Virus record (IMG/VR): IMGVR_UViG_3300015360_000163
Location: 1-27,650 of that record
Strand: one strand, 5' to 3'
From: a virus
DNA: 27,650 nt
The translations under genes and the position numbers were made by a program. This document shows positions 24,626 to 27,650 of the stretch, piece by piece. How positions within the stretch are numbered: the first letter of the stretch is position 1; the number at the start of each line of letters is the position of its first letter. Below the pieces are notes generated by a model that ran no database searches, was not told the origin of the DNA, and worked only from the letters and a program-made list of their open reading frames with translations.

Positions 24626-25513
24626 TTATCCCGTAAGAGGCACGGTGGGAATATCAAGAGGAATGGCTGGAACACTCACGGCGGGTGCGCGCGGTGCAGC
24701 CCCAGAATTTGCCAGCGATCCCGATCCCGTCAGTGCCTCTCCCGGGGGCATCACATCATGGAAAGAGCGATTCGACGACCTGTCCAACATCGCACCCGAG
24801 CGGTAGTCGTCGAGGGACCAATTGATCCAATACCGGGGAGAATGCTGCACGATCAATGAGATCGAACTCACGACAAATTTAATCGGCAACCATGTGGCCG
24901 ATCCCAACGCCCGTGGCGAGCCCTCGGAAACCAACGAACAGGAATTCCATTCCGGACTTCCCGGGTTGGGCACCCCCACATAATCCTGATCTTCCGGAAA
25001 AGTCCAATCCGCCCGCTGATACAGCACGGGGACCTGATTATACGCATAATTCCCATACGCGGAAAACCACATCGGACTCGGGGGACGACCCCGGATGGCT
25101 CCAGCCGAGCGGGCCTTACCGAAATCCATAAACGAGTAGCTCCGGAGAAAGTGCAACACCGCGAGCGTGTAGACGGCATTCGCGAACGTGTCGCAGACCC
25201 ACGTGCAATTCGACAAGGTGATCTGCACGTTATCCGTGGCCTGATACACGTTGTACGCCTCATTCGAGTGGACCATCTCCATCGAATTATATTTGACGCT
25301 CACCCCTTCGCCGATGGTCGGCGTGAACGGGAAAACCAACCCCCCGGTCTTGATGATGGGCCACATCGCACTCTTTTCGTTTGCGGTTCTCGCCAACAAG
25401 GGGAGATCGAACGGCACCAACCGCGCCGCATACTGCTCAATCACAGAACCCGCCTGTTGGGGGTTTGCGGCGAATCGCGAGGAAAGGGCGTCTGTAATTC
25501 TTGAAACTGCCAT
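24626..25513 (-). CDS. Baseplate/tail-tube-associated structural protein
   Basis: The protein has 295 residues and starts at the ATG at 25513 (MAVSRITDALSSRF). A central conserved-looking region (about 50-160) carries MWPIIKTGGLVFPFTPTIGE, NAVYTLAVLHFLRSYSFMDF and PMWFSAYGNYAYNQVPVLYQ. I recall this pattern from structural proteins of T4-related phages encoded beside gp53 and the hub, possibly cap or tube-initiator proteins comparable to gp48/gp54, but I cannot assign it more precisely. The C-terminus (about 255-295) is Pro/Ala/Ser-rich and looks disordered. No Shine-Dalgarno is visible before the ATG, and a late-promoter-like box lies only seven bases upstream, so the mRNA may be leaderless. 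It heads the late operon that runs leftwards into gp53, hub and spike. Confidence 0.72.
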   Translation of the reverse strand: MAVSRITDALSSRFAANPQQAGSVIEQYAARLVPFDLPLLARTANEKSAMWPIIKTGGLVFPFTPTIGEGVSVKYNSMEMVHSNEAYNVYQATDNVQITLSNCTWVCDTFANAVYTLAVLHFLRSYSFMDFGKARSAGAIRGRPPSPMWFSAYGNYAYNQVPVLYQRADWTFPEDQDYVGVPNPGSPEWNSCSLVSEGSPRALGSATWLPIKFVVSSISLIVQHSPRYWINWSLDDYRSGAMLDRSSNRSFHDVMPPGEALTGSGSLANSGAAPRAPAVSVPAIPLDIPTVPLTG

Positions 25514-25619: not shown

Positions 25620-27203
25620 ATGGAACCCAAGAATCATTACGCGAAGAAATCAGACCTCATCGAGCAGATCACCAAGTCGAAGGCGATTCGGAAGAAGTAC
25701 CCCAAACGGAGTCCTTCTGAGTGCCTGACTCCGAAATTGATCGATATGATCGAGCAAATCGTGTACAAATTTGGCGAGCTTCCAAACTGGAGAAATTACT
25801 GCGTTGATGAAACGACCGAGTGTTTGACCCGGCGCGGGTGGACCACAATGGATGATCTTTCCACCGACGATATGATTCTATCGTCCAAGGACGGTATTCT
25901 TACATGGTCCAAGGTAAAATCCGTATATCGGGGAAATTTCGACGGCAACATGTTCCATATGACCTCCCGTGGGTTCGACGCCTTGGTGACCCCCGGTCAT
26001 AAATTTTTGACCACCGAGGGAATCAAGCCGGTTGAATTACTTCGTGAACGAGACAAACTCGTTATGATGAGTCAACCAGTGGAAAATTCGCAATTACCCG
26101 AATACGATGACGCGTTCGTTGAATTGGTCGGTTGGACTATAACCGAGGGAAATTATCATCGTCCTACAGATCGTAACTATACCAGAGTGATCGTCCATCA
26201 AAACGAAGGTAAAAAAGCGAATCGGATTCGTGCATGTCTTGAAATTCTCAAATCTAAGCACGGTGAGACGTATCGTTCTCAATTGGGACATACCCTAATC
26301 GGGTTCACTCTATCAAAAGAAATGGGAAATCGTTTGATCAACGTTGCTCCAAATCGCGTCCCCACATTGGATTTTATTCTGAGTTTGTCCCAAACTCAGA
26401 GGGAAATTCTCATCAACACCATGGTTGATGCCGATGGTTGGCGCGCATACGGAAAATACATGAACTACGGTCAAGTATGTAAGGATCACGTGGATGCATT
26501 TATCGTGCTGTGTACTCTCGCGGGATATCGTACCTCCACTCGTCTCAAAGAACCAAACGGATACGGTAAAAAACCATTTCATGTTGTCCGGATTTTTACA
26601 TCAAGGACTCATCACAACGTGGTTGAAAAAATTGATTTTCATGGTGGGAAAAATTCCAACCGTGTGATTGGAGAAGATAAGTCTCATTACCCAAATTATC
26701 CCACAGTTCCTTATCGGGGCCGGGTGTGGTGTCCGGAAACAGAATTTGGAGTGTTCGTAGCCCGTCGTAATGGTTTCGTGTACCTGACGGGAAACTCATA
26801 TATTGAAGATATGAAAGCCTCCGCGTTTATGGCGGTCTGCCACAATGCGTTGAAATTCGATCCCGAAAAGTCGAACGAGCCCTTCAACTACTACACGATG
26901 ATTGCGAATCGCACTTTCCTGACCTTCATAGAGGCGGAGAAGAAGCAGCGTGACATTCGGGACGATTTGATAGAGGCTCACTCGTTTACCGGTCATATGA
27001 AGACCGCCGGGGACGCCAACGGGATCAAAACCTCATTTGCGCGGCAATCCCTCCATGAGACGACCCAGTTGGGTCCCTCCTTGGATGGCACCCGTCGTAT
27101 TCCAGTGAAGCGTGGCCGTTTTCGTCGTCGCAAGTCCACCGTGTTGGATGGAATTCCCCTACACACGATTGATTCCGAGCCGCCTCCGGTGATCGAGGAT
27201 TAA
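25620..27203 (+). CDS. gp55: gp55-like late-transcription sigma factor interrupted by an intein
   Basis: The 527-residue precursor joins a late sigma factor to a protein-splicing element. Residues 1-60 (MEPKNHYAKKSDLIEQITKS ... GELPNWRNY) and 393-527 (SYIEDMKASAFMAVCHNALK, KFDPEKSNEPFNYYTMIA) together give a 195-residue protein, close to T4 gp55 (185). They carry the gp55/sigma region-2 pattern '--Y---M---A------ FD--K--NPF-YY-qIA---F'. The intein occupies residues 61-392. gp55 directs polymerase, with the sliding clamp, to TATAAATA late promoters. The tail after residue 460 is basic (KRGRFRRRK) and then acidic (IDSEPPPVIED); whether it binds a clamp is unknown. I chose the ATG at 25620 because the homology starts there and GGAA lies six bases upstream; the open frame extends further left only through the divergent structural gene. 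Confidence 0.88.
   Translation: MEPKNHYAKKSDLIEQITKSKAIRKKYPKRSPSECLTPKLIDMIEQIVYKFGELPNWRNYCVDETTECLTRRGWTTMDDLSTDDMILSSKDGILTWSKVKSVYRGNFDGNMFHMTSRGFDALVTPGHKFLTTEGIKPVELLRERDKLVMMSQPVENSQLPEYDDAFVELVGWTITEGNYHRPTDRNYTRVIVHQNEGKKANRIRACLEILKSKHGETYRSQLGHTLIGFTLSKEMGNRLINVAPNRVPTLDFILSLSQTQREILINTMVDADGWRAYGKYMNYGQVCKDHVDAFIVLCTLAGYRTSTRLKEPNGYGKKPFHVVRIFTSRTHHNVVEKIDFHGGKNSNRVIGEDKSHYPNYPTVPYRGRVWCPETEFGVFVARRNGFVYLTGNSYIEDMKASAFMAVCHNALKFDPEKSNEPFNYYTMIANRTFLTFIEAEKKQRDIRDDLIEAHSFTGHMKTAGDANGIKTSFARQSLHETTQLGPSLDGTRRIPVKRGRFRRRKSTVLDGIPLHTIDSEPPPVIED
25800..26795 (+). mobile_element. LAGLIDADG intein inside the gp55-like sigma factor
   Basis: This is a 332-residue intein (precursor residues 61-392). 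It begins with Cys61 in CVDETTECLTRRGW (block A) and has ALVTPGHKFL (block B, T124 and H127). The homing endonuclease repeats are VELVGWTITEGN (about 167-178) and LINTMVDADGW (264-274). It ends VWCPETEFGVFV and RRNGFVYLTGN (blocks F and G), followed by Ser393 as the first C-extein residue. The usual penultimate His is Gly391, as in many phage inteins ending 'TGN'. All residues needed for class-1 splicing otherwise appear present. The acidic residues in both LAGLIDADG copies (Glu177; Asp270/Asp272) suggest the nuclease is active. Composition is more A+T-rich than the exteins. Confidence 0.9.
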
Positions 27204-27400: not shown

Positions 27401-27610
27401 AGTCTGTCTCATATCCTGAATATCATCGGGATCAATAGGTCCCATAAATGGCGAAACCCCAACGATATCATCCGCGATAACATTCGGAATGACCCTTCGT
27501 AGTATCGGAAGAATTTCTCCATCAAGTTCAACGAGGGTTTTAATTCCCTCACTTAACGAGGTGGACGTTTCAAGGACGTTCATTATTTCTTGATCAGTAA
27601 TTTTCCTCAT
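27383..27610 (-). CDS. Small acidic protein of unknown function, tandem paralogue copy
   Basis: This 75-residue protein (MRKITDQEIMNVLETSTSLS at the start) is mostly helical and acidic, ending GPIDPDDIQDMRQTLRDRI. Its ATG overlaps the stop of the gene upstream (ATGA). That partial neighbour ends in nearly the same sequence (IDPDDIQDMRQNL), so the two are tandem duplicates. The copy here carries a few more residues at its end because a GAGACAGA unit is repeated. It converges on the Cys-motif gene with an 18-base overlap. I recognise no family. Confidence 0.6.
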   Translation of the reverse strand: MRKITDQEIMNVLETSTSLSEGIKTLVELDGEILPILRRVIPNVIADDIVGVSPFMGPIDPDDIQDMRQTLRDRI

Positions 27611-27650
27611 AGATTCTGTCTCATATCCTGAATGTCATCTGGGTCGATAA
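27607..27650 (-). CDS. C-terminal end of an upstream paralogue (partial)
   Basis: Only the last codons are in the window, reading IDPDDIQDMRQNL and then TGA. The match to the end of the following gene (IDPDDIQDMRQTL) at protein level and 31 of 36 bases at DNA level shows it is a duplicate copy. The four-base ATGA overlap marks a coupled pair. Confidence 0.6.
   Translation of the reverse strand, partial: IDPDDIQDMRQNL
27613..27648. repeat. Direct repeat, second copy at 27401-27436
   Basis: 36 bases match 27401-27436 at 31 positions, with a period of 212 bases. The repeat is the 3' coding end of the duplicated small genes. A 12-base AGATTCTGTCTC unit is also present at 27386 and 27611. Confidence 0.7.

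Follow-up and report, generated by a model that had tools for sequence, protein, structure and literature searches.

We identified, at positions 25620-27203 on the plus strand of the window (the whole 27,650-nucleotide stretch of DNA analysed, from IMG/VR virus record IMGVR_UViG_3300015360_000163), an open frame for a 527-aa precursor which very probably represents a late sigma factor of the T4 gp55 type, encoded by a tailed phage and interrupted by a class 1 homing intein. Computed results support the identity of the exteins, the fold of the intein, its catalytic residues, an insertion site shared exactly with its relatives, its patchy presence and its transfer between gp55 genes. Since the intein is patchily present, keeps its endonuclease conserved and moves between diverged gp55 genes, the evidence, which comes from sequence comparison, favours reading it as a homing parasite of the gp55 gene over reading it as a timer of late transcription. 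We took the ATG at 25620 as the start of the precursor in preference to the TTG at 25251, which would give an ORF of 650 aa, because the additional upstream stretch lies antisense to the gene at 24626-25513. The identical 527 residues are encoded by two further contigs with different IMG numbers, which agree with the window across the gene.

Near its end, at positions 27480-27650, the window diverges from two otherwise near-identical records (L002 and L003). Past this point L003 has a short inverted segment that disrupts an nrdB-like frame, and a copy of a 9-base repeat is present in L002 and absent from the window. The divergence may reflect either a join made in assembly or a genuine rearrangement, and therefore the genes beyond it on an overlapping contig (G002) may not follow the window. 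That contig encodes a 726-aa thymidylate synthase of the ThyX type (L038:2177-4360, minus strand) with an HNH-bearing insert, which resembles another intein according to PHROG matches to thymidylate synthase and HNH, the junctions being placed by eye.

The original prediction had assigned the interrupted protein to the gp55-type late sigma factors, and comparison of the joined exteins with gp55 profiles bore this out. Once joined, the N-extein (residues 1-60; 25620..25799, plus strand) and the C-extein (residues 393-527 and the stop codon, containing the remainder of sigma region 2; 26796..27203, plus strand), which are contiguous in intein-free homologues, matched PHROG_234 'late sigma transcription factor' over residues 3-146 with an E-value of 3.1e-24, and PHROG_12791 with an E-value of 5.8e-20. 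In the unjoined precursor, the C-extein alone matched the same two families (PHROG_234, 1.2e-17, residues 390-477; PHROG_12791, 5.2e-13, residues 392-458). The Pfam Sigma70_r2 match was weak and under cut-off, both for the joined exteins (E 0.0047) and for the precursor (residues 392-441), and the NCBIfam matches were only to intein-bearing composite models or to sigma models under cut-off. Because the joined exteins, searched as one sequence against the PDB, returned nothing meaningful, linking the protein to T4 gp55 in the PDB required a profile of its relatives; the profile built from 23 intein-free relatives matched T4 gp55 (7d7c_F) with an E-value of 7.1e-11. The sigma fold was compared through the model of an intein-free relative, L040 (mean pLDDT 80.6); Foldseek ranked 7d7c_F first for this model (E 8.9e-3, probability 1.00, TM 0.40 on the target), the other listed rows having a probability of 0.28 or less and none reaching an E-value of 0.001. 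The T4 late promoter word TATAAATA, an element of T4 that may not be this virus's, showed no excess on the two strands of the window (13 one-mismatch sites versus 13.6 expected), so that a different element may be recognised by the window's gp55; in L003, too, a T4-type late promoter was not enriched.

The junctions had been placed between Tyr60 and Cys61 and between Asn392 and Ser393, and they were confirmed by intein-free homologues that are continuous at this site. When we scanned with a gp55 C-extein, the intein was present in 4 and absent from 76 of the best 80 loci, which were ordered by their similarity to the extein of a single carrier and are not a population estimate. These 76 loci run through the site as N-W-R-G-Y^T-Y or variants thereof, where the caret marks the insertion point (67 were recognised by pattern, and nine, reading NVRGY^TY, by eye). 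Five named phages are also intein-free at the site, where they read Y^S-Y, Y^T-Y, Y^M-F or Y^I-F.

In the alignment of the relatives' profile to T4 gp55, the site lies between T4 Tyr63 and Thr64, and T4 gp55 has two extra residues just past it. Since the helices that flank the insert in the precursor model are residues 38-51 and 394-412, we place the intein in the H2-H3 loop, immediately preceding H3. In T4 gp55, Glu70, Asp74 and Glu77 on H3 touch the beta-prime clamp helices of RNA polymerase, according to the available part of PMC7892883. The first of these three acidic contacts, Glu70, corresponds to the seventh residue after the site. Reading the alignment by eye, the window has Asp, Ser and Met at the three clamp-contact positions, hence its polymerase interface differs from that of T4. 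Thus, the original prediction was right that the intein interrupts sigma region 2, the part contacting the polymerase clamp helices, but wrong in putting it at the start of the region, as the site falls after about 19 of the 71 Pfam Sigma70_r2 positions.

Residues 61-392 (332 aa; 25800..26795, plus strand) had been called an intein from the sequence, and structure comparison substantiated this. In the AlphaFold model of the precursor (built from an alignment of 12 sequences; mean pLDDT 76.0), these residues matched the solved inteins TliVMA (7qsu; Z 24.6, rmsd 4.0, 298 residues aligned) and PI-PfuI (1dq3; Z 22.7), and the HINT fold was recovered through matches to the mini-inteins Npu DnaB (4o1r, Z 16.4) and gp41-1 (6qaz, Z 15.6). 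It was structure comparison that decided the identity; searching the PDB with a profile of the aligned inteins gave weak results, and the Pfam intein model gave only a match under cut-off (E 0.012). The residues also resemble the intein of Synechococcus phage B23 gp289 (see below).

We counted residues over 67 distinct inteins of the family, leaving out at each position those cut by a contig end. Residue 1, Cys61 in the window, is Cys in all 64 distinct inteins that reach it, and the residue preceding the intein is Tyr in 64 of 64. Splicing block B (Thr124-Pro-Gly-His127; 25989..26000, plus strand) has its Thr in 65 of 66 and its His in 66 of 66, and the block F cysteine at F:4 (Cys371; 26730..26732, plus strand) is Cys in 66 of 66. 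At the C-terminal splice junction (Gly391-Asn392 followed by Ser393; 26790..26798, plus strand), the final Asn and a Thr or Ser at +1 occur in all 66 distinct inteins, and the penultimate residue is Gly in 63 of them, the window lacking the usual penultimate His. This His is not defining for class 1, because class 1 phage inteins with a penultimate Gly splice; according to the available part of Kelley et al. (PMC5050341), the class 1 Bethlehem RDF intein, with a penultimate Gly, splices completely, and changing this Gly to His slows splicing. We assign the window intein to class 1 and predict, from its residues, that it splices. Separately, we considered class 3 on account of the F:4 Cys and a G:5 Thr. 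Class 3 inteins are defined by having no nucleophile at residue 1 and a Trp at B:12 of the WCT triplet (PMC5050341, available part); this assignment was rejected, since, wherever it could be read, Cys1 is invariant, and B:12 is Phe, with Trp at B:12 in 1 of 66 distinct inteins.

The homing endonuclease domain (residues 160-331; 26097..26612, plus strand) aligned in the model to I-DmoI (4una, Z 14.9), and it contains two LAGLIDADG motifs, namely, LVGWTITEG with the acid Glu176 (26124..26150, plus strand) and LINTMVDADG with the acid Asp272 (26409..26438, plus strand). The acid of motif 1 is present in 62 of 64 distinct inteins (61 Glu and one Asp), the Asp of motif 2 in 63 of 64, and both acids are kept in 60 of the 62 full-length distinct inteins; L178 has lost both and L017 one. 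The dN/dS of the endonuclease is 0.11-0.15 in 9 of 11 comparison rows and near 0.48 in the other two. Homing is probably not active everywhere, because some inteins lack the endonuclease (L023 and L041) or its acids (L178 and L017).

The two inteins without an endonuclease are natural mini-inteins at the gp55 site, one of 138 aa (L023:4193-4606) and one of about 151 aa (L041:1-447), the first two residues of the latter falling off the contig as judged against L159; one of their gp55 hosts is B23-like and the other resembles that of L159. A second intein of 317-325 aa is found later in gp55 region 2, after Lys/Arg-Asn and before the host Cys of a Cys-Phe pair, in L122 (L122:3650-4624), L169 (L169:3635-4585) and L173 (L173:3644-4615), the last being the same contig as L013 (L013:5219-6190), where this second intein ends in Gln in place of Asn. 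These second inteins gave only short, weak matches to those at the first gp55 site (best E 0.028), and that of L013 has three relatives among phage records, the best of which lies in a ribonucleotide reductase and is 27% identical. Odd C-termini occur in L173 (Ser-Ser-Asn) and L017 (Thr-Phe-Asn). As full, endonuclease-lacking and doubled states are all found at one gene, the life cycle of an intein can be traced within one protein family.

The intein is not peculiar to the window: many metagenomic contigs and one named phage carry an intein in gp55. A scan with the precursors of the window and of Synechococcus phage B23 returned 22 loci, 15 of which are gp55 genes with an intein at the same site (two of the 15 being contigs of the window's own virus). 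When IMG/VR was scanned with nine inteins, the best 80 of 136 relatives, which include near-copies of one another, were all in gp55 at the same site (77 were recognised by pattern, L180 and L198 on visual inspection, and L141 by the N-side of gp55); 78 of the 80 show both sides, L141 ends one residue past the junction, and L197 shows the C-side only. The intein-carrying contigs include ones of 360 kb (L008), 259 kb (L183) and 230 kb (L124). Matches to gp55 occur in 564 annotated phage records and matches to the intein in 148; a single record, Synechococcus phage B23 gp289, covers at least 80% of the precursor, and with the B23 protein as query one annotated record again reaches this coverage.

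A tree of 109 gp55 sequences (57 of the 88 carriers, namely those with sufficient extein, 45 of the 76 intein-free loci, the five named phages, L034 and L035) implies at least 18 changes of intein state, at least five of them forced by starred branches; many forks in this tree are unresolved, and several rows, including the window, sit on very long branches. The gp55-site intein is patchily present, widespread in IMG/VR and not a singleton. Related inteins were also seen in other phage genes (L019-L022 and L024-L026). Judged by eye, portal-like proteins are among their hosts, the L022 host is a very large structural protein and that of L025 is phosphoesterase-like. In cellular genomes we found nine relatives of the intein (L199-L207), all in MAGs and 23-29% identical, none with gp55-like flanks by eye; several of them have the common flanks GFQ^CPFTN, which resemble those of an anaerobic ribonucleotide reductase.

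Between gp55 types whose exteins are less than 30% identical (229 of 1596 pairs), the inteins average 45% identity, where the extein identities span only about 135 residues; slower change of the intein alone could give a higher intein than extein identity. Stronger signs of movement are given by 32 pairs with exteins more than 80% alike yet inteins less than 60% alike, and by the synonymous changes. Intein dS is 0.08-0.74, versus an extein dS of at least 1.17 or saturated, in 9 of 11 comparison rows, which were chosen by low intein divergence and of which four are near-duplicates; the remaining two rows show divergence throughout. Where residues are identical, synonymous codon differences are significantly fewer in the intein than in the extein in 10 of 12 pairs picked for similar inteins, several of which share members; of the remaining two, L138/L150 showed no difference and L126/L127 was uninformative. 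In L193/L195, such differences number 4 of 323 in the intein versus 124 of 203 in the extein, and the intein DNA is 99.4% identical with flanking 30-nt stretches that are 70% and 77% identical. As this pattern is not produced by vertical descent, the intein was transferred between diverged gp55 genes. No co-converted flank was found around L193/L195, nor a clear tract overall; in three other pairs just the first 30 nt downstream are raised, with an identity of 0.90-0.97, for which protein conservation could be an alternative to co-conversion.

From these data we infer splicing, DNA cleavage and the inactivity of the unspliced precursor. In the proposed cycle, Cys61 would attack the bond after Tyr60, Ser393 would take over the N-extein and Asn392 would cyclise, yielding a sigma factor of 195 residues and a free LAGLIDADG endonuclease of 332 aa. 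The endonuclease would cut intein-free gp55 genes at the conserved stretch coding for N-W-R-G/N-Y^S/T-Y, and repair of the cut gene would copy the intein in, such that the intein may persist through homing plus precise splicing. An intein kept by movement and precise splicing would leave a scarless host protein, so that a regulatory benefit would be unneeded.

The original prediction had proposed instead that splicing could set the timing of the late genes. On this view, an intein that splits region 2 immediately ahead of the helix gripping polymerase would keep the precursor inactive until splicing, and might act as a post-translational switch: unspliced gp55 would be unable to bind polymerase, and late-gene expression would start at a moment set by the splicing rate, by redox state or by some other cue. 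Consistent with such conditional splicing are the closeness of the site to the Glu70 clamp contact, the invariance of Cys1 and the block F Cys where seen, the existence of the two mini-inteins and the argument of Kelley et al., in the available part of PMC5050341, that phage inteins may tune splicing. However, with 76 of the best 80 gp55 relatives free of the intein, phages of the same type manage without it, the endonuclease is both conserved and mobile, and the penultimate-Gly phage intein tested in that work splices completely. We consider conditional splicing improbable, and a role in late-gene timing is not favoured in view of the patchy presence, the conserved endonuclease and the transfer between diverged gp55 genes. 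It is also unlikely, in our judgement, that a homing intein additionally gates late transcription, the phages of L023 and L041 having domesticated it as a late-gene delay or cell-state sensor.

Alternatively, the insertion could be degenerate and incapable of splicing, leaving a broken gene and late transcription served by another factor, as the odd C-termini of L173 and L017 and the missing penultimate His of the window might suggest. But no nucleophile is missing from the window copy, whose frame is open, the catalytic residues are near-invariant in the 67 distinct inteins, and the same 527 residues recur on the two further contigs, making a degenerate insertion very improbable. A chance or assembly artefact, in which an intein gene was misassembled into gp55, has a nearly negligible probability even though every carrier seen except B23 is a metagenomic contig, since the window record and the two contigs agree across the gene, the arrangement is also that of the named phage B23, and the same codon boundary recurs across the loci of the best 80 intein relatives. 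A homing intein in a gp55-type late sigma factor accordingly remains our preferred reading.

The expectation that no intein had been reported in a gp55 homologue held within the open-licence literature, where we found no published report, while one may exist elsewhere; the available parts of PMC3185647, PMC5259590, PMC6669764, PMC13282480, PMC7824862, PMC5418858, PMC9026906, PMC6690015, PMC6145125, PMC8425127, PMC12613952, PMC6070864 and PMC10452541 report none. The analysis thus adds an intein host for which we found no published case, the sigma factor by which T4-like and jumbo phages read their late promoters. The occurrence of near-identical inteins in diverged gp55 genes is a sign of recent transfer between phages with otherwise divergent genes, and the gene offers a testable case of whether an intein splitting a sigma factor before its polymerase-gripping helix affects late-gene timing.

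Among named phages, the likeness is to gp289 of Synechococcus phage B23 (MN695335, b23_0289), which like the window's protein is a gp55-type sigma factor with an intein at the identical site; the two inteins are 42-43% identical and the exteins 28%, and the B23 locus has 32% GC versus 51% for the window. A search of phage records found no locus closely related to that of B23. The B23 record describes a hypothetical protein with the note 'phage T4-like gp55' and leaves the intein unnamed, so that in other records gp55-intein genes may go unrecognised or be labelled hypothetical. The inteins of the mycobacteriophage RDF (metallophosphoesterase) and of the Gordonia phage TerL and portal proteins are about 22-30% identical over the full intein length, and that of the Nepal RDF, at 26% identity, likewise ends in Thr-Gly-Asn; they differ in host protein, which is a recombination directionality factor, a terminase or a portal instead of a late sigma factor. 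TliVMA, PI-PfuI and PI-SceI share with the window intein a splicing domain with an inserted LAGLIDADG endonuclease (Z 19-25), but just 10-18% identity, and their host proteins are archaeal or yeast. T4 gp55 (7d7c), finally, is homologous to the window's protein in sigma region 2 and is likewise a late-promoter factor, but it has no intein.
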